Below, in pieces: positions 2,090 through 60,531 of a stretch of 64,000 bases of DNA; position 1 is the first letter of the stretch; each line of letters begins with the position of its first letter. The translations under genes and the position numbers were made by a program. The notes under the pieces were generated by a model that was given only the letters and a program-made list of their open reading frames with translations, did not search any database and was not told the origin of the DNA. The DNA is from Druceiella hillmani (lineage: Eukaryota; Arthropoda; Insecta; Lepidoptera; Hepialidae), in the NCBI GenBank assembly GCA_039881145.1, contig JAYKKI010000013.1, positions 39,513,501 through 39,577,500 on the forward strand, given 5' to 3'.

Positions 2090-3350
2090 AACAATATAAA
2101 GAAATATCTAGCTACACGACGCGTAATAATTTCGCAAATGTATATTGCATGTATAGATCAATAGATGGCGCTATGTGTATTTTAAATCGCTTAAACAATT
2201 TTTCTCACCGGATATACATTGGTAGAATGGGTATAGATACAATTAAAATATGGTATGGTATGGGAGTGATAAGCGTCTAAACAAGAAATATAAATGTGGG
2301 CAGATGCTGTTGTTGGTTGTCTTTCGCATTCATTTTTGGTTGTTGTATATATTCAACACAAGCTATTTCTCATGTTTTTTCCTCAATTTATTTAAAATAA
2401 TTTAAAAGTTGTCAACAATTATTTTATTCTTTGTGTAGGTTAAGTGATGGGTGGTAAAAATTTAATTGTCACATACTTTATTGCCTAGCCATAAAACAAA
2501 ACTGCAAAGTACTTACCGGAATCTAAAAAAAACTCATACAGTACGAAAATGTTTTTTGAAATATTTTTCTGTTTGTTTGTTTCTGTGTTTTTTGTACACA
2601 CATCACGTAAAATATTAAATAAATTCGAATGGTGAGAATATGAAAATTTACTAGAAGCAAGATATAGTTTTTATTCTGTTGCATTGGTTCACTCCATATG
2701 AAGATATACAAATTTAACATTTACAAAAATCGTTTAGATCACGTTAGTATAATACAACGTAGAAGCCCAGCAGACCGATACTTAGTAAAAACACAAATGT
2801 ATAGTGGACCTGTGTACACCAATACATAACGCTGTTTGTTTTTTAAACCGCGCAATGAAATTTTCCACTGTATATACATTGGCGAAATAGGCATGGCTAG
2901 AGGTAAAGTGTCGAGTGATACGGGTGGAGTTGGTGCTTCAGTAAGCAACTCTATTGCGGGGAGATACAAAAAGACATAGACAAATACATGGTATTCAGTT
3001 GTCTTCAGCACACATATTTTTTCGATGTTGTACGTTCTCGTTATACGCTTACCTTGCTTTCTAAATTTGCTTAAAATCGATTGTCAATATTTATATGTTA
3101 ATTACTTTAGTAAATGTAGTATTGAGCTGTATAAATTTGACGTTTTCGTATTTTATGTTTATACATATAATATAACTATGGAATTGGCATGGATATATAA
3201 CAAGATTAATAGAACCCAGAAATGTTATTGAAAGTTTGTTCGTTTCTCTGTGAGATTGTTTATTTGTTCGTACATCACGCAAGAGAGAACGAAGGAAATT
3301 CGGTGACGTTTTCACAGGTGGATTTTGTTGAGTTTTGGGTAACGTAGGTT
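2090..3350. repeat. Degenerate tandem repeat, about 0.66 kb units, locus 1
   Basis: About two diverged units. Landmarks recur in the same order: a TAGATGGCGC-like motif (2163-2173), an ATTGGTAGAATGGGTATAG-like motif (about 2218) recurring as a GGCGAAATAGGCATGG-like motif (about 2880), and a TTTGTTTGTACACA-like stretch ending in CATCACGTAAAAT (about 2595, again about 3262). The spacing of the second landmark is about 660 bp. The same landmarks recur at 44500-45760, so this is a dispersed family. I cannot assign it to a known class; a decayed satellite or the amplified end of a transposon are both possible. Short frames inside are not supported as genes. Confidence 0.6.
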
Positions 3351-3352
3351 TT

Positions 3353-3907
3353 GTTTTATCGCAATCGACTATTATAAAAGGATATATGACAATTTGATTT
3401 TTCAAAGTAAATATATACAATTACTTAAAAAGTTACTTGTATAGTTATCTTAATAGACGGGCTTAGGTATCCCAATCTGATAATTAAATTAATAGCATTT
3501 TTTAAAAGCCCACATACGAACGAATTCAAGTTCATTTGTTTTATCGCAATCGACTATTATAAAAGGAAATATGACAATTTCATTTTTCAAAGTAAATATA
3601 TACAATTACTTAAAAAGTTACTTGTATAATTATCTTAATAGACGGGCTTAGGTATCCCAATTTGATAATTAAATTAATAGCATTTTTTAAAAGCCCACAT
3701 ACGAACGAATTCAAGTTCATTTGTTTTATCGCAATCGACTATTATAAAAGGAAATATGACAATTTCATTTTTCAAAGTAAATATATACAATTACTTAAAA
3801 AGTTACTTGTATAATTATCTTAATAGACGGGCTTAGGTATCCCAATTTGATAATTAAATTAATAGCATTTTTTAAAAGCCCACATACGAACGAATTCAAG
3901 TTCATAG
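3353..3907. repeat. Three tandem copies of a 185 bp unit
   Basis: Copies start at 3353, 3538 and 3723, each opening with GTTTTATCGCAATCGACTA and closing with a GAATTCAAGTTCAT motif. Copies 2 and 3 look identical by eye. Copy 1 differs from them at about four positions, which implies a recent duplication of the last unit. The array abuts the degenerate 0.66 kb repeat. A start of the unit (ATGTTTTATCGAACTGACC) recurs after locus 2 near 45750, so the 185 bp unit seems to be a locally amplified part of the larger repeat. Confidence 0.9.

Positions 3908-9432: not shown

Positions 9433-9482
<50 letters not shown>
9433..9482. repeat. ATC/CAT trinucleotide microsatellite
   Basis: About 16-17 uninterrupted ATC units. 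It directly precedes the Helitron-like element. A short ATC run stands in the same place beside the second copy (29340-29353). Confidence 0.95.
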
Positions 9483-9974
9483 ATATATTAATACGCTAAG
9501 GTTAAGATGTTACTCTCCCTTTTTAGAAAAAACCTCACAACTAATCCACATAAATTATATATCATTTTATAGATAATTGCTTGCTCTACCGGCATCCACA
9601 ACTAAAAAATTTATTATTGCTATTGTTTTTGTAAATTAATTAATTATTAAAATTATATACACAAAACAGCAATGCTGCCATCTAACGGCTCAACGTCAAT
9701 ATGATTGACGGTCGGTAAAATTTTTGTTTAATTTCAAATCCACTCACGTATAAATAAAGTGGCGCTTTAGCTCAATGCTTTTGATACTTGCGCCTCTATA
9801 TGTCAATTTTAGTAAAATATTTGTTTGATCTGTCATCTGAGCTTCATAATGGAATAAAAACGTAATAAGCAGTGTGCAAAATTAGAAATGAATTGAATAC
9901 CTGCAATCAATTTTGATTTATTAAATTGAGTTGAATAATTTATAATGCGGAGACTTCGCACGGGCCACGCTAGT
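9483..9974 (+). mobile_element. Non-autonomous Helitron/Helentron-like element, copy 1
   Basis: The copy begins ATATATTAATACGCTAAGG after an ATC microsatellite and ends with a short hairpin (TGCGGAG A CTTCGCA, 9946-9960) followed by GGGCCACGCTAGT. A hairpin about 10 bases before a CTAG-T end is the 3' signature of Helitron-type elements, and microsatellites next to the 5' end are known in Helentron-associated elements of insects. An internal perfect hairpin CGTCAAT-ATG-ATTGACG lies near 9691-9707. No coding sequence is present. A copy with near-identical sequence lies at 29355-29764; it lacks about 85 bp found here between a GGAATAAA motif and the end hairpin. Confidence 0.65.
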
Positions 9975-29335: not shown

Positions 29336-29354
29336 GTATCATCATCATCATATC

Positions 29355-29764
29355 ATATATATTAATACGCTAAGGTTAAGATGTTACACTCCCTTTTTAG
29401 AAAAAACCTCACAACTAATCCACATAAATTATATATCATTTTATAGATAATTGCTTGCTCTACCGGCATCCATAACTAAAAAATTTATTATTGCTATTGT
29501 TTTTGCAAATTAATTAAATATTAAAATTATATACACAAAACAGCAATGCTGCCATCTAACGGCTCAACGTCAATATGATTGACGGTCGGTAAAATTTTTG
29601 TTTAATTTCAAATCCACTCACGTATAAATAAAGTGGCGCTTTAGCTCAATGCTTTTGATACTTGCGCCTCTATATCTCAATTTTAGTAAAATATTTGTTT
29701 GATCTGTCATCTGAGCTTCATAATGGAATAAATAATGCGAAGACTTCGCATGGGTCACGCTAGT
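29355..29764 (+). mobile_element. Non-autonomous Helitron/Helentron-like element, copy 2
   Basis: It matches copy 1 (9483-9974) almost base for base from ATATATATTAATACGCTAAGG to the GGAATAAA motif, then lacks about 85 bp and resumes at the end hairpin. Here the hairpin is perfect (TGCGAAG A CTTCGCA, 29736-29750), followed by TGGGTCACGCTAGT. A short ATC microsatellite precedes it. Same orientation as copy 1, about 19.9 kb away. Confidence 0.65.
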
Positions 29765-30745: not shown

Positions 30746-30760
30746 AGTTACTGATTGATA

Positions 30761-30951
30761 TTGAATATATTTGGCGTTAATTTTGTAGAAATTCATTATT
30801 AGCAATTAAATGAAACTACGTGATGTAGTATTAACATATAACAGCTAATAACCCACCTGAAGATGTTGTAATACAACGAAACCTAGGTCGTGGTAAAGAA
30901 CTTAAGGAAAGTAGAAATAATACTACATCACGTAGTGTCATTTAATTGTGA
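30761..30951 (+). mobile_element. Hammerhead-bearing fold-back repeat, copy A
   Basis: 191 bp between 13-bp direct repeats TTACTGATTGATA (30748-30760 and 30952-30964), a long target duplication. The left end is a tail (TTGAATATATTTGGCGTTAA onward) of about 42 bp, then the inverted-repeat body from CAATTAAATGAAACTACGTG to its complement ending TCATTTAATTG. The palindromic motif ACTACGTGATGTAGT marks both arms. The left arm is internally deleted; the right arm is whole and carries the hammerhead-like motif. No protein is encoded, so movement would need enzymes from elsewhere. Confidence 0.8.
30853..30893 (+). ncRNA. Hammerhead ribozyme-like motif, copy A (best preserved)
   Basis: The 41 nt fit a type I-like hammerhead: stem I CCAC (30853-30856) with GUGG (30890-30893); core CUGAAGA (30857-30863); stem II GUUGU/ACAAC closing a 3-nt loop (30865-30877); core GAAA (30878-30881); a minimal stem III ACC-UA-GGU (30881-30888) and C at 30889 as the cleavage nucleotide. 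All invariant core bases of the consensus CUGANGA...GAAA...UH are present. The odd point is one extra U (30864) between the CUGAAGA box and stem II, which would be bulged. The very short stem III resembles minimal hammerheads of Penelope-like elements and retrozymes, which may work as dimers. Activity is not proven. Confidence 0.65.
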
Positions 30952-30964
30952 TTACTGATTGATA

Positions 30965-36570: not shown

Positions 36571-36586
36571 TGAATACTTTTTTATA

Positions 36587-36801
36587 TATAATTAAATGAA
36601 ACTACGTGATGTAGTATTACTTCTACTTTCTTTAAGTTCTTTACCAATCGTTGCTAACAGCCCACATGAAGATATTGTAATACAACGAAACCTAGGACGT
36701 GGCAAAGAACTTTTAAAAAATAGAAATAATACTACATCACGTAGTTTTATTTAATTGTGAATAATGAATTTCAACAAAATTAACGATAAATATATTCAAT
36801 A
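36587..36801 (-). mobile_element. Hammerhead-bearing fold-back repeat, copy B
   Basis: Same family as copy A with the tail at the right end (complement of the TTGAATATATTTxxCGTTAATTTTG tail), so by that mark it is in reverse orientation. Direct repeats TTTTTTATA (36578-36586 and 36802-36810) flank it. The arms begin AATTAAATGAAACTACGTGA and end with the complement. The ribozyme-like arm (36662-36702, plus strand) is damaged: CUGAAGA is AUGAAGA and the U before the cleavage site is A, so it is predicted inactive. Confidence 0.75.
36662..36702 (+). ncRNA. Degenerate hammerhead-like motif, copy B
   Basis: CCAC and GUGG (stem I), GAAA and the CCUAGG stem III remain. The first base of the CUGAAGA core is A, stem II has a mismatch (AUUG against CAAC), and the UC cleavage dinucleotide reads AC. 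Expected to be inactive. Confidence 0.55.
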
Positions 36802-38037: not shown

Positions 38038-38348
38038 GACTTATAAAAGTATTTATATTGTAGTGAATTTACTCCTGAGGGATACCAGTAAGAAAATCGT
38101 AAATTTTACACGCTAATATGAAATTCTTTGTCCTAAACAAATATTATTAATCCAAATGACCTAACACAAGGACAACAAAGTAGCGAGTCAAAAGTGACCT
38201 CTAACTTAAGCAGTACTGACCCTTTGTTGTTGAAACGCAAGTATATCAAGTCCTTGTCCACATTCTTTTCATCGATATTGACGAGAAGTTAGATATAAAT
38301 ATGGAATGACAACGACTCGGCAGTACCATTTCCTCTCACTCGGCAGTA

Positions 38349-38350
<2 letters not shown>

Positions 38351-38403
<53 letters not shown>

Positions 38404-38439
38404 TATATATATATATATGTATACATATATATATATATG
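38351..38439. repeat. (TA)n microsatellite
   Basis: A long interrupted TA run. The inverted counterpart, expanded differently with a GT section, is at 42238-42340. Confidence 0.95.
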
Positions 38440-39396
38440 CTTTCTTGCCAAGTTTTCAGTTTTTAATGCAAGCGGATTTTTCATTTTCCCCTTCATTTAT
38501 TTTCACTTATACCTCAACATCCCACGATTTGATTTTAATGCTTTACAGCTTTACAAAGGATAAAACAACAATTTTCTTAGTTGCAATAAACTCTTTAATT
38601 TAAAAAGAAGAACAAACGTCATTAATCTAAGAGATCCCCTTCTTGACACACTTTCTCGTTAGGCTAAAGTCGCCTATAAACTCGAGAGGCTGGTAAGTAA
38701 ATTAGCACAATAATTTGTCAGCAACTTTCTATTGCATGAAAGTCTCTCGGAGCTTTAAATCTTGAAACAAATTGAGCTTAGTAGAATACTGAGTAAATGC
38801 TACTATTTAATATGAAATATTACGTACAGTGCTAAATAATGTTGCACAATTCGATACAATTTAAGGAGATCGATGTATTGATTATTAGGTTATTTTTAGT
38901 ATGATTGAGCTAAAAGAAAAACTGCAAAAATAACTAAATTTGAGTAAAACTTGATTAACAGTTGAGACTGTCGCTTTGAACTTTTTTATTGCCAGTAGTC
39001 ATAAACTCAAATATTAAAAAATAATATATTCGGTTCTTTTTTTAAGTACACGGTGACAAAAATTTTGCCTAAATTTTATATCAAAATTGGATCAATTTTT
39101 TTTCTAATTTATACAAAAAATAAGATAATCGTTTAATAAAACAAATTTTAAAATATAAATTATTTCTCACAATAAGTAACCTATAATATTTTTAAATTAT
39201 TTCAAAATAAATATCGCTTCCTTTTACATGTGATCTATAATTTACTTAGATTAAGTTCGTGTTTTAAATAATTTAAATATTATAAATTAATACAATATAT
39301 TGAATATATTTGGCGTTCATCTTGTAGAAATTCATTATTCACAATTAAATGAAACTACGTGATGTAGTATTATTTCTACTTTCTTTAATTTCTTTA

Positions 39397-39437
39397 CCAC
39401 GACCTAGGTTTCGTTGTATTAAAACATCTTCAGATGG
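39397..39437 (-). ncRNA. Hammerhead-like motif, copy C left arm
   Basis: On the minus strand: CCAU-CUGAAGA-U-GUUU..CAAC-GAAA-CCUAGG-UC-GUGG. The core is intact, stem I has one G-U pair, and stem II has one mismatch. Confidence 0.55.
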
Positions 39438-39486
39438 GCTATTAGCAGAGGTGGTCTATTAGCAAAGATTAGCAATCTTTGCTAAT

Positions 39487-39527
39487 AGCCCTGAAGATGT
39501 TGTAATACAACGAAACCAAGGTTGTGG
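39487..39527 (+). ncRNA. Hammerhead-like motif, copy C right arm
   Basis: CUGAAGA, GUUG/CAAC stem II, GAAA and a CCAAGG stem III are present. The cleavage dinucleotide is UU, and stem I (AGCC against GUGG) is poor. Probably weak or inactive. Confidence 0.5.
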
Positions 39528-39658
39528 TAAAGAACTTAAAGAAAGTAGAAATAATATTATATCACTTATTTTCATTTAATTGTAATACAATTTACTAACA
39601 ACAAATTATCATTAAATGTGGATCGAAAAAATGGGGAACATTTTTGTACCAAATAAGG

Positions 39659-40682
39659 TCTATTCTTCGTCATCTATTAAATATAAAAGGAATTTAAACG
39701 TTTTTTTAAATTTTCAAAATTTATTTTTCTGTCGTTGAGTAATTTCACTTGTTTATTCACTTCTGTAACTACTTTTCTATAAATGTTTTACCAAGTTAAG
39801 AAAATTGTTACTTTCTTAGAAATTGTTAACTAAATTTGAGAGCTTTTCTTTAATAATCATTTGTATTACTCGAATACATGCGTAGATATAATGTAACATA
39901 GAGAAAGCTGATTAACTTAACAAAATAATAAATAACGTACTACAGCGACATAAGTTATAGTTTTACTAATATAAATAGCCCTACAGTCGTATATAATCGT
40001 ACATTTATTCAGTGTAAGATATATAAATGGTGTGTAAAATTTCAACTGATAATTCAAACAAAAGCTATTAACTATAAAAGTTACTTGAGAGAACGAATGA
40101 TTTATGTGAGGAATAATTTAATATAATTTTTATTTTAACTGTTTTAGCTTACTTTGAGTCACGATCTTTATTTTAATTTATTTAGACAACGGCCTCACAT
40201 TTATGAAATGATATGTGTGTGCGTGTGTCTGTGTGTGCGTGTGTGCGTATATGTGTGTGTGTGTCTGTGTGCGTGCGTATGTATGTGTTTATGAGCGCGC
40301 GTATACCTATTTGTGCGTGCACGTTTATGTGTGTGTGTGTGTGTACCATCTATTCCACAAGACAAAAGGCGAGATTTTTTCCAAAGTTATCAAGATAATT
40401 ATTACAATTTTTTTTACATTGAAATACAAGTAAAATCGTATGGGACAAAAGAATTATTAATAAACAATAAAATAACTTCAGCATTGAAAACCGTCTGGCA
40501 CCTCCGGAACATACCCTGGACGAGATCTGTAGCACGGGAACAGCACGGGAAATCATTCGATTTACCCTTAAAATTTGATCTAAATTACGAACACACTTTC
40601 CCGCACGCTGGCACTTCATAGTGGTTCGCACGCTTTTGATAAAGGTTGTGTCGGGAGATTTAGAGGTTCAATCTATCGGCTT
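39659..40682. other. Spacer between the inverted arms, with (TG)n array
   Basis: About 1.0 kb of single-copy DNA. It holds a TG-rich microsatellite (40211-40345) and a GC-richer segment (about 40490-40680) open in more than one frame, without a recognisable domain. Confidence 0.6.
40211..40345. repeat. (TG)n microsatellite with CG/CA interruptions
   Basis: A TGTGTG-type run of about 135 bp with C interruptions. The Cys-Val-Arg frames through it are artefacts. Confidence 0.9.
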
Positions 40683-40832
40683 ATATTCCAGCGAATATGT
40701 TACTTACGATCATAGAGATCGTAAGTAACATATTCCAGCAAATATGGATCACGACTGATTTGAATTCCGTCAAAATGCTCAGCATTTGTAAACGTTTTAA
40801 ACGCGATGTTTGAACCATATAACCAAAATTGG
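40683..40832 (+). repeat. Left terminal inverted repeat around the right arm
   Basis: 150 bp matching the complement of 42812-42951 (for example GATCACGACTGATTTGAATT, AAATGCTCAGCATTTGTAAACG, ATAACCAAAATTGG). The outer part is a perfect hairpin: 19-bp stem GAATATGTTACTTACGATC (40693-40711), loop ATAGA, complement to 40735. Together with the right copy it brackets the arm at 40873-42811 like the ends of a fold-back transposon. Confidence 0.8.
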
Positions 40833-41001
40833 GTCTTACACGAGAGCAATAAGCCGAAGCATTGTCACCAAGCCTATTTTGTACAAAAATGTTCCATATT
40901 TTTCGATCCACATTTAATGATGATTTGTTGTTAGTAAATTGTATTACAATTAAATGAAACTAAGTGATATAATATTATTTCTACTTTCTTTAAGTTCTTT
41001 A

Positions 41002-41042
41002 CCACAACCTTGGTTTCGTTGTATTACAACATCTTCAGGGCT
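41002..41042 (-). ncRNA. Hammerhead-like motif, copy D left arm
   Basis: Equivalent to the copy C right-arm motif: core CUGAAGA and GAAA intact, stem III CCAAGG, UU before the cleavage site, weak stem I. Confidence 0.5.
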
Positions 41043-41091
41043 ATTAGCAAAGATTGGTAATCTTTGCTAATAGACCACCTCTGCTAATAGT

Positions 41092-41132
41092 CCATCTGAA
41101 GATTTCTTAATACAACGAAACCTAGGTCGTGG
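41092..41132 (+). ncRNA. Degenerate hammerhead-like motif, copy D right arm
   Basis: CCAU/GUGG stem I, CUGAAGA, GAAA, CCUAGG and UC are kept. The 5' side of stem II reads UUCU, not GUUG, so stem II cannot form. Confidence 0.5.
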
Positions 41133-42236
41133 TAAAGAAATTAAAGAAAGTAGAAATAATACTAAATCACATAGTTTCATTTATATGTGTATAATGGATT
41201 GCTACAAAATTAACGTCAAATATATTCAATAAATTGTATTAGTTTATATTATTTAAATCACGAACTTAATCTTAGTAAATTATAGATCACATGTAAAAGG
41301 AAGCGATATTTATTTTGAAATAATTTAAAAATATTATAGGTTACTTATTATGATATATAATTTATATTTTAAATTTTATTCCTGCTATTATTAAATACAT
41401 GTAGTAAAACAACGTCTTTTAAATGGTTTGCTTGTCCTTGTACTATATACATTTGGTTGTTGTAAAGGAAATGAAGATAATGGATACCTTAAATCGCCGC
41501 CGTTGCGGTAATAAAAACTAAGCGTTTGACTTACAAAACAGTGAAATGATTATCTTATTTTTTCTATTAATTGGAAATAAATTTATCCAAATGTGATATA
41601 AAATTTAGGCAAAATATTTATCATCGGGTACTCAAAAAAAGAACCGAATATATTATTTTTTAATATTTGAGTTTATGACTACTGGCAATAAAAAAGTTCA
41701 AAGCGACAGTCTCAACTATTAATCAAATTTTACTCAAATTTAGTTATTTTTGCAGTTTTTCTTTTAGCTCAATCATACTAAAAATAACCTAATAATTAAT
41801 ACATCGATGTCCTTAAATTGTATCGAATTGCGCAACATTATTTAGCACTGTACGTAATATTTCATATTAAATAGTAGCATTTACTCAGTATTCTACTAAG
41901 CTCAATTTGTTTCAAAATTTAAAGCTCCGAGAGACTTTCATGCAATAGAAAGTTGCTGACAAATTATTGTGCTAATTTACTTACCAGCCTCTCGAGTTTA
42001 TAGGCGACTTTAGCCTAACGAGAAAGTGTGTCAAGGAGGGGACCTCCCTTAGATTAATGACGTTTGTTCTTCTTTTTAAATTAAAGAGCTTATTGCAAGT
42101 AAGAAAATTGTTGTTTTATCCTTTGTAAAGCTGTAAAGCATTAAAATCAAATCGGGGGACGTTGAAGTATAAGTGAAAATAAATGAAGGGGAAAATGAAA
42201 AATCCATTAAAAGCGAACTGAAAACTTGGCAAGATA

Positions 42237-42237
<1 letters not shown>

Positions 42238-42290
<53 letters not shown>

Positions 42291-42303
42291 GTGTGTGTGT
42301 GTC

Positions 42304-42340
<37 letters not shown>
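42238..42340. repeat. (TA)n-(GT)n-(TA)n microsatellite
   Basis: TA run, then about 13 GT units with one C, then TA again. It is the counterpart of 38351-38439 with an extra GT part. Confidence 0.95.
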
Positions 42341-42675
42341 ATAAAATATAAATCTCAAGGTGGGAAGTAAATTTGTTTATGGAAATGGTACTGCCGAGTC
42401 GTTGTCATTCCATATTTATATCTAACTTCTCGTCAATATCGATGAAAAGAATGTGGACAAGGACTTGATATATTTGCGTTTCAACAACAAAGGGTCAATA
42501 CTGCTCAAGTTAGAGGTTACTTTTGACTCGCTGCTTTGTTGTCCTTGTGTAAGGTAATTTCGATTAATAATATTTGTTTAGGACAAAGAATTTCATATTA
42601 GCGTGTAAAATTTACGATTTTCTTACTGGTATCCCTCAGGAGTAAATTCACTACAAAATAAATACATTTTAAAAG

Positions 42676-47960: not shown

Positions 47961-50900
47961 GTCATGGAGAAATAAGGTGGAATAAGGGTAGAGTTAATGC
48001 TTTCTTCTGAAACGAAAGTTCATATGCCTGAAGTGGAACACCTGAGTATTCTGATTAATTCATTATTTGACTCTTCGAAAGTACTTCCATTATAAAAATA
48101 GAAAGTGTGAGATTTACCACGATATGGTATAAATATAAACAAACATAACCCAAATGCATCTAAAATAAGATTCCTGATCAATTCTAAATACGAAAAAATA
48201 TATACAAACTATGATTACCTTCGGCGAGAAGATATTTACAAACTATGGTTACATTTTGGGAATTTAGTAAAGGCGAATTTTAATTTAACGTTTTCACGTA
48301 CAATCAATTTTAATTCATACGAAAACAAATCTCGTTGAATATTTTAATGACTTATATTTCAACATCAAGAATATCATTAAGGGACAAATGTATGTTTAGT
48401 ATGATATACATTTGTTCACAATTATTTATTAATTAATATTCATGCAAGAGTTTAATTTTCAGCATTTGGTATGAACGCGAATAGTAAAAATAATTCTCTT
48501 TTCAATAGAGAGCTATTGAAAACAGAATTATTTTTTAATATGTATATTTGATTAATCGTTTTCTTTCTTTTTTAAATTTCAAGTCTATAAATATTTGAAA
48601 GTAATCATGAGTCATGTCTATGTCTACAGATTCAACAAGATCATTGGATATGACATTGTAATTAGTTATGTCTCCTTCGAGGAAAACTCAAACATAAATT
48701 TAATTCCTTTTTTTAATTTAAATTTCAAGTGTATAAATATTTGAAAGTAATCATGAGTCATACCTATGTCTACAGATTCAAGAAGATCATTGGATATGAC
48801 ATTGTAATTAGTTATGTCTCCTTCGAGGAAAACTCAAACATAAACTTAATTCCTTTTTTGAATTTAAAAATTTATATTTAATATATTCGACTATTCTGTG
48901 TCCTTCTTTTCTGAATGTACGTGCGGAATGTGTGGAAATTAATTGTCACTTTATTACGCAAAATATAGAGATAGTTTAGCTTGAACATAATTTTTAATAT
49001 TTTTGAAATGAACCCAATTAAATAAGGACATTTAATTGGGTCAGGTTCCTTTATATTTTATTTAAGTTTTTCCAATTTGAAACAAATTACAGTTTTTTAT
49101 TTATTGTAAACCGTAAATATTATTAATTCAATCCAATGTATATAAGATTGACCTAATAAATTTAAAGACTTCATTTTTTTAATATAATCTGCAATGAAAC
49201 AATATCTTTTATGAGGCTCAAGTTTAAAAGATTCGTTGCTCAAAAATTAATCTAAGCGGTTATTAATGAGCACGTAAAATTATTGTTTCGTTCACAAATG
49301 AGATTTATATATCATATTAGCTACAATACATTTTGCTTCTAAAATATTCCAATAATTATTTTACTACTAACCGAAAACGTGGTAAAAATTAATTTATTCA
49401 CAAAATTTAATAAGGCGAAATATGAATTCAGTACTTTCAAATTAAGACTCCAGCGCTTTGTCGCTATGTAAACGACCGAGTAAAATTGATGATGAGATAA
49501 CTATGCGTTCACTACATGAGCAATCATTTACATAGGTATTTAAATACCTTTTATTTACCATATCTAATCAATAATTTCAAAGGTGATAAGTATTATTGAA
49601 ACTTAACACAAAATGTTTTTCATTCATTGAACATCGTTAAGAAATTATGTTACGAAAAATTATAAACGATCTATAAGAAAATTCACATAAAAAGTAGATA
49701 GCCGAGGACAGATAATTACTAACTTGCAACCATTTTTCAATAGTCAATCGGTATTTAATTGTAATGAAAAATAAGTTTTCAATATTCTGGATATAATCAA
49801 TATCAATTAAGTTTCTCAACGAGGAATTTGTTTCAATTTCTTAACGGACTTGTAACAAGGACCTATTATTTGATCGAATTAAGCCCCACGTTTTAAGGTT
49901 CGGTGGCACTTTAAATGGAACACGGATATTTTTCATACAAACTGTTTAAAATTTGGAATTATTGATCCTTCAAAGCCATCAAACAAATGATAATATTTTT
50001 ATATCTTTAATTACATTCCTTCATCTTTCTTAGATTACTTTCGAAAATTTTAATGATTTCAAAATGTTTGCTCTCGTCAGACTTTTAGTCTCAAAAAAGA
50101 CACTCAAATGTCTTAACAAAAAGTATAATTCAAATTGATGCTAATCGGTAAATGGTATCATTTAAATATGCTTATATTTCTATAGAATAATTTAAATAAT
50201 CCAAATTGTTGTCAAAGCAAATTCAATTTCTTACCTGGACTACACTTTGGCAACCAACTCCTTTTTCTCAAACACAACGACTACTTACTTTAAAAAGTTT
50301 TTCTCACAAAGCGCGAAGAATTTGGCATCAAATGGATTCCTCAAATTTGTACTTATTTGTACTTAATGAAATACCATGCCTTTCATTTAATTAAACGATG
50401 TCGCAATTTCATGAACATGAAAAATTTATAAAAACGTTTTGAAGAAAACCATATTGCCGTATGTTGCTCCCATATATGTGCAGTGATTTAAGCAGCTTAC
50501 GCCTTGTGTGCAGCGAAGGCTTTTTGACGACTTTATCGTGTTCATATTCCTAGGCTATATAATTTTCACACGATTTTAATAAATAAATACTTAGCCATCC
50601 TCGTGAGTCAATGTCTTATCGATTAATGAAAACCGAAAAATAAATCCGTTCGGTAGACACTTAGAAAATCGTATACATACGTACAAACAGGTGCACAATG
50701 GGACCTTATTTTATAATATGTATTCTTATTAAATAATATAAATGAAGTATGTAAATGCTAAAACTACGTACCAATGTTAAGTTCATTATAAAGAGTATGT
50801 AACCATTACCTTTGGTGAATAAATCATAAATTTATGTCGTCAGAACAAAATGCTAATTGCATTGAAAAGTGCGAGATTTTCCAATGCAATCGAAATAATC

Positions 50901-50997: not shown

Positions 50998-51002
50998 AAT
51001 TC
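50998..51002. repeat. Target-site duplication (AATTC), left
   Basis: The 5 bp AATTC next to the 3' LTR matches 55177-55181 next to the 5' LTR. This is the usual length for Ty1/copia. Confidence 0.9.
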
Positions 51003-51091
51003 TAATAAAACGTGTACGGTAGTTACAAATGATACCACATAGAAGGCGTTAGTAGTACATTAAATACATTATTTTGATATTAATTCTAACA
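51003..51091 (-). repeat. 3' LTR (89 bp)
   Basis: On the minus strand it begins TGTTAGAATTAATATC, as copia-type LTRs do, and ends CACGTTTTATTA. It ends in TA and not the usual CA. Identical in length to the 5' LTR. Confidence 0.92.
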
Positions 51092-51100
51092 TCTCCACTT
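51092..51100 (-). other. Polypurine tract
   Basis: AAGTGGAGA on the minus strand lies directly before the 3' LTR, the place where plus-strand DNA synthesis is primed. Confidence 0.75.
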
Positions 51101-51190
51101 ATCAAAATAATCTGAACTTTGTAACATATAAATTATTTTTAACAAACTAATAAAAGCAGAAAATGTTATTAATTTACAGATAGTCACCTA

Positions 51191-51685
51191 TTAAACAATG
51201 TTTTGAATACCTGACTTTTTTAAAAAATAGTTATGTTTAACACTATCTAAACCCTTGGTCAGCAAGTCTGCTGGCATTTCAGATGTTGGCATGTAGACTA
51301 TCTTTATAAGATTGTTAGCAACTGCTTTTCTAACAAAATGATGACGCACATCTATGTGTTTAGTTCTTTTATAAAATAAAGAATTTTCAGACAGCTTCTG
51401 AGCGCCTTGATTGTCATTATACAATATAATTACATAATCACAACTGTTTACAATTTCAGAAAACAAGTTTTTTAAATAAAAAGCCTCTTTACAGGCTTCG
51501 GCAATTGCCATATATTCTGCCTCTGTACTTGATAAGGCTATAGTACGTTGTTTTTTACATTCATATGAAATAACAGTTCCAGAAAGTTTAAAGTAGAAAC
51601 CTGTATAGGATCTCCTATCTAGTGTGTTTGAAGCCCAATCTGCATCAACGAAACCCTCTAATTTACAATTATCTTTGATAAACAT
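51191..51685 (-). pseudogene. Copia RNase H block
   Basis: A 164-codon open block. It holds EGFVDADWASN with the first catalytic Asp of RNase H, then ALSSTEAEYMAIAEA with the Glu, YNDNQGAQKLSEN with the next Asp, and HIDVRHHFVR, then a PADLLTKGL end typical of the copia C terminus. It degrades the RNA strand of the RNA-DNA hybrid in the virus-like particle. The catalytic residues look intact, but the block is out of frame with the reverse transcriptase before it. The stop at 51191 looks like the natural end of pol. Confidence 0.9.
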
Positions 51686-52622
51686 TAGGCCATAAGAGTT
51701 TAAGTTTTAGTTTTACATAAGTATCTTAGGATGCGTTTCGCATGCTTCAATGAGTATAGGAATATGAATTATTAAATTGGCTCAAATAACTCACACTATA
51801 GGAAATATCTGGGCGAGTCAAAACACTTAAATACATTAAGCTTCCTATTAGTTGTTGGAATGGATATTGTTTACAAACATCTACACTTTTCCCTAGTTTT
51901 AAATTTTTCTCAATAGGGGTACCAACAACTTTACAGTTTGTCATATTAAATTTACTTAAAATACGGTCTACAAACTTTTCTTGATCTAAGGAAATATTGC
52001 CATTCTGATACATTTTTACTCTCATACCCAAACATTGTTTTAATTGCCCCAAATCCTTCATTTTAAATTTTGACATTAAATTTGTTTTTAACTCCTTAAC
52101 CATATTACTACTGTTTGAAAAAATGAAAAAATCATCAACAAAAATTGCTATTATGATCTGCTCCTTTTCACAATTTTTTATATACAGACATGGTTCTAAC
52201 TTTGACTTAACAAAATTTAATTTTAATAAAGAATCATTTACTCTTTCGTTCCAAGCCCTGGCTGATTGTTTTAGACCATAAATTGCACGATTTAATTTAA
52301 GAACACTATTTTCTTTACAATCTAAATTAGGGGGAACTTGCATATACACTTTTTCATTTAAGTAACCATTTAGGAATGCTGTAGTTACATCTAAGCGAGT
52401 AATTTCAAGGTTAAGTTTGACACTTAAAGCAAATAGAAACCTTAGTGTAGAGTAACGAAGCATTGGTGAGTATGTGTCAGCGTAATCTACACCTTATTTT
52501 TGGGTAAAACCTTTTGCCACAAGTCTTGCTCTATATCGCACACTATTATCACTTTCGTACTTTTTCTTGAATACCCACTTACACTGTATCACTCTATCAG
52601 CTTCTTTCCTATCTACAAACGT
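51686..52622 (-). pseudogene. Copia reverse transcriptase block
   Basis: Copies the element RNA into DNA. Open from 52463 to 51747 with upstream sequence in the same frame beyond a TAA at 52494-52496. Landmarks: VTTAFLNGYLNEKVYMQVP, then AIYGLKQSARAWNERV, then the catalytic box IFVDDFFIF (Phe-Val-Asp-Asp, both Asp present), then LGMRVK and IGSLMYLSVLTRPDI. The frame is lost near 51750 by a frameshift, and a second shift near 51700 precedes the RNase H block. Catalytic residues survive, so decay is by scattered lesions and not by deletion. Confidence 0.9.
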
Positions 52623-53148
52623 TCATGCTCGATTATCGTCGAAAGCTTTCAGTTCATCTTCCATCGCTTGTCTCCACTGTTCCTTGTCTGGTCCATTTAT
52701 TGCTGCTTCATAACTGAGTTCTTCATCACATGATTCCAGATTATCCAGAAGACAGAGATTGGTCATCCCATATCTTTCTACTTTTCGGCTTTCTTTTACG
52801 CTTAGCTTCAATTTGAACTTCATTCTCTGCAAAAGACTCTTCTTCAGTAACAGATTGATACGAGTCATCTTGGGAAGACGATGATTCACAAATATATGTT
52901 GAATCATTTGGATCTGAACCTGGATTTTCTATTAAACTTTCATCTTCTTCTAAGTTTTCATCTTTCTTTGACTTATTTTCACAATCGTTTACTACAATCT
53001 GAGCTTCGTCCAACTCCATTTTCTCCATAATGATGACATCTCTGCTCGTAGTAATTTTTTTAGTTCTTGGGTTACACAATCTGTATCCTTTCACATTCTC
53101 TGGATACCCAACTAAAATTAATCTGTCAGCCTTCTTATCCTATTTTTG
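52623..53148 (-). pseudogene. Copia integrase tail and reverse transcriptase N-terminal region
   Basis: It joins integrase to reverse transcriptase. The frame from 53094 starts KGYRLCNPRTKKI and includes an acidic linker (KKDENLEEDESL, then PNDSTYICESSSS), ending at 52741. A frameshift in about 52760-52830 moves homology to another frame, which continues AAINGPDKEQWRQAMEDEL, the start of the reverse transcriptase domain, to a TGA at 52623-52625. Another stop (53140-53142) lies upstream of 53094. Confidence 0.85.
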
Positions 53149-54618
53149 TCATTGTATTTTGGGAACATGCACCATTACTTTACTGCCAAAAATTCTAACA
53201 TGGCTGAGGTCTGTTTTCTCACCTGTCCACCTCTCAAATGGTGTCATCATGCCTAAACTGGCGGTTGGTGTTCTGTTCTTTAGGTAAACTACAGTATTAA
53301 CTGCTTCAGCCCAAAAACTTTTGTCGAGACCTGCTTCAAACAATAAACATCTTGCCCGTTCAACTATAGTTCTGTTGAACCTCTCTGAGAGTCCATTCTG
53401 CTCTGGAGTGTGAGGATTGGTCTTCTGATGGACAATACCTACTTGTTTTAAGTAACTTTCCATCTCACGTGAACAAAATTCACCTCCATTGTCGGTTCTC
53501 AGTATTTTTATCTTGTTTCCAGTTTGATTCTCAACTAAACTTCGAAATTCTTTGAAATGCTGGAACACCTGGTTCTTTTCCTTCAAGAAGTAAACAAAAG
53601 TCATTCTGCTGGCATCATCCACAAATAGAAGAAAGTTCTTCGCCAGACCAATTGACTTGGTCTCCATCTGCCCACATAAATCTGAGTGTACTACATCCAG
53701 TAATATTTCACTTCTATGGTTTGCTGATGGGAAAGGGAAACGTGATTGTTTTCCCTCACAGCACACTTGACAATTCTGTATCTGTATGTCAGCTTTCTTG
53801 TGAAAAGAAACTCCTTCTACTGATCCTTCTTTAATTTTTTGTAAGGACTTACTATTTATATGTCCTAACCTTTTATGCCATGTTGACATTGCTGATAACG
53901 AGTTATCGAATTTTTTTGTGTTTAACTTGTACACTCCATTTATCAAATTTGCTGTACCAATAAGCTCATTCACTTGGTTGTATATCAAACAGGTATCTTT
54001 TTTGAATACAACTTTATTTCCTTTAGCTATAAGTTGGCTTACGGATAATAAGTTTGCCGTGTGATTCGGTATATACAATACGTCCTTCACAATCACGTCA
54101 TACTGAGAAATGTTCACGCATGTCGTTATCTGTGATTTACCAACACTAACTACAGGCACCGTCATTTGATTTGCCACTACGATTTCTTTAGGTTCGTGTA
54201 CTAGTCGAGTTCGGAGTAAACATTTTTGGTTTGACGTCATATGCGCGCTTGCGCCTGAGTCGATGTACGAATCTTCTGTGTTATAATAACCGTTGAAAAA
54301 CGCCGCGCTAAAAGCATTCAATTGTTTATTTGCTCTTAATTCAGGACACTTATTTTTGTAGTGGCCGATCTTCTTGCAATTATAACACTTTATTTGTTTA
54401 CTGCTGGTTGACTTTGACATTTGCTTGTCAGTGTTGCCTTTTTTATTTCGCTGTTTTGACCAAAAGGCAGAGTCGATTCCAGTAGTGCCAACCTCCGAAC
54501 ACATATCAAGTAACTTTGTTTCAATGACGTCAGCGCTAATGGCTATTCCAGAGTGTTATATTGCCATTATCATCGGTGAATACTTATCTGGAAGTCCCGC
54601 CAAAAGTAATGACCCAAT
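53149..54618 (-). pseudogene. Copia Gag end, protease and integrase block
   Basis: The longest surviving frame (451 codons from the Met at 54504, open upstream to 54618). In order: zinc knuckle CYNCKKIGHYKNKC (54387-54346, CX2CX4HX4C) that binds the RNA; protease YIDSGASAHMT with its single active-site Asp at about 54261; integrase zinc-binding WHKRLGHIN and NCQVCC; integrase core with D, D and E in HSDLCG, TDNGGEF and GLSERFNR, spaced 62 and 35 residues as expected. This part looks intact. It ends at a TGA (53149-53151), just before the integrase tail. Confidence 0.95.
54346..54387 (-). other. Gag zinc knuckle (CCHC)
   Basis: CYNCKKIGHYKNKC: Cys, Cys, His and Cys with spacing 2-4-4, the standard retroelement nucleocapsid motif. 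Confidence 0.95.
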
Positions 54619-55026
54619 CTATTCGTCTGTGATTTCGAAACCTGTCCCTTTCAATTTATGTGCTGTCTCAACCACTTGAGATACATAGGATGTCATGGAT
54701 TCGCAGTTATCGAGGCGTATTGAAATCAATGTACGAAGCAAACTTATTTTTCGTTGATACCCCGTGTCGTCAAATAACTGTTTTAATTTCTTCCACACAC
54801 CGTTCACTGTAGTTTCACTTTTTATATGCACATATAATGAACAGTCAATTGTCATAACGAGTTTTGCTTTAGCTTTTTTCTTCTCAGATTCACTGATAGT
54901 TGTCGGTACATTTTCAATGTCAATGCCTTCAAGTAACAAGAAATTACTTGTTGCAAACGCCCAATCGTCGTAATTCTCGCGTCCTTTGAGTTTCGGCACA
55001 TTTACTAAATACCCCGACGTCGACAT
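54619..55026 (-). pseudogene. Copia Gag N-terminal block
   Basis: Capsid-like Gag protein. The likely start is the ATG at 55024-55026 (MSTSGYLVNVPKL), not the upstream ATG at 55083, because that one lies inside the primer-binding site. The early Trp in ENYDDWAF is characteristic of copia Gag (DUF4219/UBN2 type), followed by TVNGVWKKLKQLFDD and LISIRLDNCESMTSYV. A TAG at 54619-54621 stops the frame; homologous sequence carries on in the same frame downstream, so a single nonsense change separates this from the next block. Confidence 0.9.
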
Positions 55027-55073
55027 AGTTACTTTCGCACGAGAAAATAAAAAAGATTTTAGCAAATGTGGGT

Positions 55074-55087
55074 CTGGGCTCATAACC
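55074..55087 (-). other. Primer-binding site (initiator tRNA-Met internal half)
   Basis: On the minus strand GGTTATGAGCCCAG follows the 5' LTR directly. It differs at one base from GGTTATGGGCCCAG, the site in Drosophila copia that pairs with the anticodon arm of initiator tRNA-Met and not its 3' end. Priming from an internal tRNA fragment is inferred. Confidence 0.85.
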
Positions 55088-55176
55088 TAATAAAACGTGT
55101 ACGGTAGTTACAAATGATACCACATAGAAGGCGCTAGTAGTACATTAAATACATTATTTTGATATTAATTCTAACA
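55088..55176 (-). repeat. 5' LTR (89 bp)
   Basis: Same as the 3' LTR but for one base. TG start and TA end. Confidence 0.92.
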
Positions 55177-60298: not shown

Positions 60299-60310
60299 CT
60301 CAAATATGAT

Positions 60311-60519
60311 ATTGAATATATTTTGTAGAAATTCATTATTCACAATTAAATGAAACTACGTGATGTAGTATTATTTCTACTTTCTTTAATTTCTTTACCA
60401 CGATTTAGGCAAACTTTGCTAATATCCCACCTGAAGATGTTGTAATACAATGAAACCTAGGTCGTGGTAAAGAAATTAAAGAAAGTAGAAATAATACTAC
60501 ATCACGTAGTTTCATTTAA
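60311..60519 (+). mobile_element. Hammerhead-bearing fold-back repeat, copy E
   Basis: 209 bp flanked by CTCAAATATGAT (60299-60310) and CTCGAATATGAT (60520-60531), a 12-bp target repeat with one change. Tail ATTGAATATATTTTGTAG, left arm with ACTACGTGATGTAGT, internal deletion through the left ribozyme arm, complete right arm ending TTTCATTTAA. Same orientation as copy A. Confidence 0.8.
60427..60467 (+). ncRNA. Hammerhead ribozyme-like motif, copy E
   Basis: CCAC/GUGG stem I, CUGAAGA, GUUGU/ACAAU stem II with a terminal G-U pair, GAAA, ACCUAGGU stem III and the UC cleavage site are all kept. It has the same extra U before stem II as copy A. Second-best copy. Confidence 0.6.
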
Positions 60520-60531
60520 CTCGAATATGAT

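Follow-up and report, generated by a model that had tools for sequence, protein, structure and literature searches.

The stretch analysed here, called the window, comprises 64,000 nucleotides of contig JAYKKI010000013.1 from Druceiella hillmani and holds several short fold-back insertions bearing a hammerhead-like motif. At 30853-30893 on the plus strand the motif reads CCAC-CTGAAGA-T-GTTGTAATACAAC-GAAA-CCTAGG-TC-GTGG (41 nt) and has all invariant core letters, as the sequence-only reading had claimed. It is built from stem I (30853-30856 paired with 30890-30893), the CTGAAGA segment (30857-30863), a single extra T between A9 and stem II (30864), stem II (30865-30877), GAAA (30878-30881), CCTAGG (30882-30887), and TC (30888-30889), with the predicted cut after 30889. 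The same layout does recur at 60427-60467 on the plus strand, one letter apart from the first copy (C11.1 to T, which makes the first stem II pair G-U). The altered forms that had been listed are likewise present: a decayed copy at 36662-36702 (plus strand; C3, the first stem II G, and U16.1 changed), copies at 39397-39437 (minus strand; mismatch in stem II) and 39487-39527 (plus strand; stem I partly gone), and copies at 41002-41042 (minus strand) and 41092-41132 (plus strand; decayed stem II). The copies near 39 kb and 41 kb are not independent since they lie in the two arms of one inverted duplication (38045-42669). All copies in the window sit inside fold-backs, in agreement with the earlier description of their setting as a dispersed fold-back repeat.

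Insertion A (30760-30951, plus strand) is a short head-to-head insertion of a Penelope-like element (PLE), flanked by a 12-bp target duplication, TTACTGATTGAT, at 30748-30759 and 30952-30963. It consists of a tail at the left end (30760-30802, minus strand), a remnant of the left pLTR arm (30803-30833, minus strand), and the right pLTR arm from the leader to the arm end (30844-30951, plus strand). Insertion B (60311-60519, plus strand) is also short and head to head, has its tail on the left only, and is bounded by the 12-bp duplication CTCRAATATGAT with one mismatch (60299-60310 and 60520-60531). The short insertion C (36587-36801, minus strand) has its tail on the right and an approximate 9-bp duplication, TTTTTTATA, at 36578 and 36802, and insertion D (39297-39582, plus strand) retains both arms nearly full, with the approximate duplication TAATACAAT at 39288 and 39583. 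A mirror copy of D, whose ends are approximate, lies at 40940-41230 on the minus strand. The two arms of the inverted duplication around D share 94-97% identity in segments spanning about 1.6 kb and enclose a 1.27-kb centre; each arm holds one of the short PLE insertions. Other repeats of the window include a Copia-like retrotransposon on the minus strand (51002-55176; integrase and RT-like frames judged by eye) bounded by direct repeats of 90 nt each, which match at 99%, a 300-nt direct repeat, 99% identical, at 9478-9777 and 29352-29651 (19.9 kb apart), and tandem repeats at 3350-3905 (185 nt, three copies) and 48564-48855 (146 nt, two copies).

How often such a motif would arise by chance was estimated with a descriptor that allowed one inserted letter and was written after the motif had been seen. 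Among 700 simulated 64-kb windows it produced a single match, and none in which stem III was palindromic; a looser descriptor gave 0.02 matches per window (150 simulations). The real window holds two matches, both with a palindromic stem III, which belong to one family and are thus counted as one event.

The host genome (2.586 Gb in 181 contigs) was searched with the repeat, yielding 1061 first-look candidates, of which 40 were scored and all 40 matched. An alignment of 30 copies showed inverted arms joined head to head, with a tail of about 45 nt on one outer end in most of them. When tails were scored by alignment in 42 paired elements, mostly drawn by one query that did not include the tail and counting three similar, perhaps not independent elements (L027, L042, and L043), the tail was found on the left only in 24, on the right only in 15, on neither side in 3, and on both sides in none. 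A looser pattern test had flagged both ends in four of 30 copies (L002, L013, L014, and L027); alignment scoring of these four placed the tail on one side in three and on neither side in L014. Target duplications, 10-18 bp long and most often 12 bp, border 26 of the 39 elements that have one tail, vs 14 of 780 control pairs of mismatched flanks. Blind sampling found units in two of six 10-kb stretches, or about one per 30 kb, which puts the copy number roughly, as estimated from two events, in the order of 10,000 to 300,000. Solo pLTR arms with no partner were seen at 2329-2490 of L004 and 2470-2644 of L014, their inner ends lying near the predicted RNA start (-28 and -19). An exact 27-mer search of viral contigs gave no match.

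The link to protein-coding genes comes from a Pfam GIY-YIG search of the host genome, which returned two matches: an endonuclease fragment in locus L032 (34.5 bits, above the cut-off of 22.6) and a second gene that we take to be SLX1-like. Both L032 and L033 combine the endonuclease with arms of the window type, and in L032 the arms are inverted upstream of the endonuclease and direct, with the motif, downstream of it. A protein search with the L032 endonuclease gave matches at all 150 scored places, the best of 6151 candidates; a protein homologue search with the same endonuclease found none. Downstream of the endonuclease, 29 of 30 fetched loci (the exception being L058) have a pLTR in which the motif stands either unchanged or altered. 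Of the loci concerned, L050 and L032 are one and the same place, and L077 has its downstream flank in common with L078. The 37 nt from C3 onward are identical in 21 of these 29. A 623-aa frame in L076 matches RVT_1 (8.6e-15) and, at its C-terminal end, GIY-YIG (19.4 bits, below the 22.6 cut-off), and L081 forms a direct unit of a pLTR with the motif, a tail, a 781-codon frame (the longest read inside one unit), and another pLTR with the motif; an ATG in its tail meets a stop after 25 codons, immediately ahead of the long frame. An 864-aa open frame, the longest listed in the endonuclease search, was rejected as an intact gene because it spans a head-to-head junction.

The gene-bearing copies have the same architecture as the short ones. 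The pLTRs are arrayed directly in L081 and inverted in L033, L080, and L082; L080 is a 5.4-kb head-to-head insertion whose 2.35-kb arms are 99.6% identical. Neighbouring pairs less than 8 kb apart among the 150 best endonuclease matches are head to head in 25 of 25 cases, and exactly one tailed end is present in L033, L080, and L082 as well as in the pairs for which both loci were fetched (L052/L053, L062/L063, L069/L070, and L076/L077). As the same arms flank RT and GIY-YIG genes, the earlier inference of a retroposon was right, and the repeat is the pLTR of a PLE. In the proposal of a ribozyme-bearing retroposon, the retroposon half stands on these genes, the inverted pLTRs, the one-sided tail, and the target duplications; the ribozyme half met with Rfam scores below cut-off.

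These scores come from a comparison with 4227 Rfam families. The best match of the copy in L081 was Hammerhead_1 (16.6 bits; cut-off, 34; E 0.11), and that of the window copy was HH9 (14.9 bits; cut-off, 52; E 0.15). The scan of the whole 64-kb window listed no hammerhead at E <= 5; miRNA-family matches in the window all fell below their cut-offs, were located in microsatellites or fold-backs, and were rejected. None of the Rfam hammerhead covariance models reached its gathering score in the window scan, the window copy, or the L081 copy, which counts against the ribozyme. The lowest-energy fold predicted for the monomer is another structure, favouring an ACCU/AGGU pairing (-8.8 vs -4.4 to -4.8 kcal/mol for the hammerhead), and stem III of a monomer has at most 3 pairs and a 2-nt loop. 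In its common form, stem III contains a perfect 8-bp palindrome, ACCUAGGU, which suits action as a dimer; the unconstrained prediction for the dimer is a long duplex and is uninformative on the hammerhead fold. Reviews, in their accessible parts, describe PLE hammerheads as being without helix III and possibly working as dimers (PMC7761336, PMC6155905).

The extra nucleotide, flagged beforehand as a departure from the consensus, turned out to characterise the family that carries the genes and is not the decay of a single copy. Of 29 endonuclease loci, 28 have it after A9 and ahead of stem II (T in 27, C in 1), and L067 has a 3-nt deletion instead. A descriptor allowing zero or one extra letter matched 24 places in 244 kb of sequence, all with one (L001 and window position 60431 being one place), and the direct joining of A9 to stem II that is expected of a hammerhead is not seen in them. 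The A9, the extra U, and the following G make up an ATG, which meets a stop two codons on; the cut falls after position +27 of that ATG. The extra U may therefore be ancient and linked to a start codon. In excerpts on other hammerheads, an inserted core letter is associated with lower activity or thought tolerable if it points outward (PMC3088659). Our literature search found no insertion after A9 described for PLE hammerheads, which is no proof of absence as the primary papers of 2014 and 2017 were outside its reach.

Conservation was assessed in 35 motif copies from the gene loci and 45 from elsewhere, all ungapped and with at most 8 mismatches; the counts therefore exclude indel-bearing copies, for instance those with 3 nt deleted from stem II. 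The invariant core (C3 U4 G5 A6 N7 G8 A9, G12 A13 A14, A15.1-U16.1, and H17) is kept in 33/35 copies at the gene loci and 29/45 elsewhere, and stems I and II are both fully paired in 31/35 and 31/45, respectively. Core sites changed at 3/385 positions vs 17/1050 for the other sites in the gene loci, and at 16/495 vs 64/1350 elsewhere; the core sites are only slightly quieter. No recurrent compensatory change was observed in the stems, the sole change on both sides to a standard pair being T-A at pair 2-40, and the copies are very alike. The 3-nt deletion in stem II, which turns ATGTTGTAA into ATGTAA, recurs in four of the 30 aligned copies (L018, L020, L026, and L030) in addition to L067, and these copies possibly form a lineage of their own with a broken hammerhead.

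The explanation that we consider highly probable is that the repeat is the pLTR of an abundant, recently active PLE with a two-site route of insertion and that the motif is a minimal type I hammerhead belonging to this element, with an additional nucleotide at position 9a. Whether it works is a separate matter, and the chance that the motif would cleave under some natural condition is put at about one half. The strongest rival keeps the pLTR of a PLE and holds that the hammerhead is dead, the extra nucleotide having inactivated it and the motif persisting by descent and copying only. This reading is a serious one, although we place it somewhat below an even chance. It draws on the extra core letter itself, the Rfam scores, the competing fold of the monomer, and the missing covariation with its little-slowed core sites. 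Many arms run through an uncut motif, so uncut RNA must often serve as template, and hammerhead mutants of the anole PLE were unaffected in their insertion in vitro, according to the accessible text (PMC11167929). Against it, core and stems I and II are intact together in 30 of the 35 gene-locus copies (loci L050-L080; 21 of 45 elsewhere), and the common form of stem III is the perfect 8-bp palindrome that action as a dimer would require.

Other readings fare far worse. The repeat might be a metazoan retrozyme, that is, a non-LTR tandem element with type I hammerheads and circular RNA, instead of a by-product of a PLE. Its size and low GC content resemble those of animal retrozymes as described in the accessible part of one paper (PMC7229834), but the copies are head to head and not tandem, and both the repeat and its tail are common to gene-bearing PLE copies, so that we regard this as very unlikely. 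Conservation of the stretch as protein-coding sequence, in the frame reading PPEDVVIQRNLGRGKE.., is even less probable: about 30 codons are open by eye in several window copies (one window copy has a stop where CGA became TGA), but peptides of either strand had no Pfam match, the single PDB match is chance-like (16 residues, E 0.0049), and the PLE frame stops about 600 nt upstream of the pLTR with the next frame opening in the tail; this reading was rejected. The least probable of all, a DNA transposon or MITE of the foldback or Mutator type with the motif as a chance resemblance, would fit the long inverted arms, the target duplications of about 12 bp, and the many dispersed copies but is rejected by the asymmetric ends, with a single tail, on one side or the other, in 39 of 42 elements, and decisively by the RT and GIY-YIG genes between the same arms.

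Within the preferred reading, the arm ends bear on how the PLE inserts. A TATAAA lies at -50 relative to C3, and among 19 arms not drawn by the hairpin query (from the window, the blind stretches, and the flanks) eight end at -20/-19, or 6 of 15 once the query element and its mirror copy are removed. In the query-drawn set, 35 of 79 arms end between -22 and -17, and at the endonuclease loci 36 of 46 arms extend to the end of the 300-nt upstream reference. The simplest reading is that the short arms would be reverse transcripts that reached the RNA 5' end about 30 nt past the TATA box. Also among the 79 query-drawn arms, 17 stop at +31, which is two bases short of the predicted cut. At the centres of L001-L030, 20 of 30 copies read CCACGATT in one arm where the pLTR has CCACGACC, the other arm being without it, and these centres sit at a break near the predicted hammerhead cut. 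As the query itself carries CCACGATT, both the +31 ends and these centres may be due to sampling; in the blind set of 19 arms the +31 cluster is not clear, with one arm at +34, and the +31 ends are not counted as evidence of cleavage.

The outer ends, which lie about 45 nt apart, would match the pair of RT start sites that delimit the tail of the anole PLE, and the one-tail rule suggests that, within an insertion, each strand has its own start site. In the route proposed here, the RNA would start about 30 nt after TATAAA, with its 5' end about 20 nt ahead of C3. The PLE protein would open the target on both strands, and reverse transcription would begin inside the RNA at two sites about 45 nt apart, one strand using the upstream site and the other the downstream one. 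Short hairpins with arms back to the RNA 5' end, like the copies in the window, would arise from a start at the 5' copy of the signal, and the long head-to-head insertions that bear genes from a start at a 3' copy. As for the hammerhead, it would cut at C17^G1.1, poorly as a monomer; it would likelier be active as a dimer through ACCUAGGU or with the help of protein as in the anole PLE. A stricter version, in which PLE integration is obligately asymmetric (the strands priming at different sites and leaving exactly one tail), most insertions are short because they run from the 5'-signal start to the RNA cap, and the extra-nucleotide hammerhead, as a dimer or with protein, sets which RNAs stay full length, is offered tentatively, as rather more apt to fail than to hold.

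Both the mode of Penelope insertion and the purpose of the hammerhead are still open questions in the field. In the host genome, short insertions number perhaps in the tens of thousands, and their ends, target duplications, and inner ends are readable, which suffices for testing the rule on start sites and for asking if cDNAs end where the hammerhead would cut. Furthermore, a natural hammerhead with a core insertion that is kept by a young, gene-bearing family provides a clean test of core tolerance. Hammerheads in PLE pLTRs are already known, having reportedly been described by Cervera and De la Pena in 2014 and by Lunse, Weinberg and Breaker in 2017; what is added here are the core variant, the clustering of arm ends about 30 nt after the TATA box, and the one-tail rule.

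Compared through the accessible parts of the reviews that cite them, the published PLE hammerheads resemble the present one in being minimal type I motifs in pLTRs with a weak or absent stem III and a proposed action as dimers, and may differ from it in the extra nucleotide between A9 and stem II. The closest parallels come from PAc, the Poseidon element of Anolis carolinensis, as far as the available sections of its description go (PMC11167929): both elements combine RT and GIY-YIG, both have, at about the same position, a hammerhead in which an AUG lies where stem II begins, and both have the tail structure, which in PAc is ascribed to two internal RT start sites. According to these sections, cutting by the anole hammerhead depended on protein, and insertion in vitro could do without the hammerhead. 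Both target strands were extended in the same in vitro system with no difference in RT start between them, whereas here the tail is on one end only in 39 of 42 elements. Moreover, unlike in PAc, the AUG of the motif here runs into a stop two codons on, and the long frame is found further downstream, extending from the tail.

Metazoan retrozymes are likewise short repeats with type I hammerheads, but the accessible text describes tandem units and circular RNAs (PMC7229834), whereas here no tandem short units were seen among the copies analysed, which are known from DNA. In anatomy, the insertions are similar to Penelope of Adineta vaga, for which the part of the report at hand gives inverted pLTRs, palindromic junctions, and one tail, of 31 bp there (PMC3846280). 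No strict one-tail rule was described in the literature that our search reached, the main 2014 and 2017 papers lying beyond it; the accessible part of that same report does describe inverted pLTRs of which one has a tail (PMC3846280). The target duplications of the Adineta element are given there as 8-10 bp, compared with mostly about 12 bp here, and its copies as few, in contrast to the very numerous short pLTR-only hairpins of the present genome (PMC3846280).
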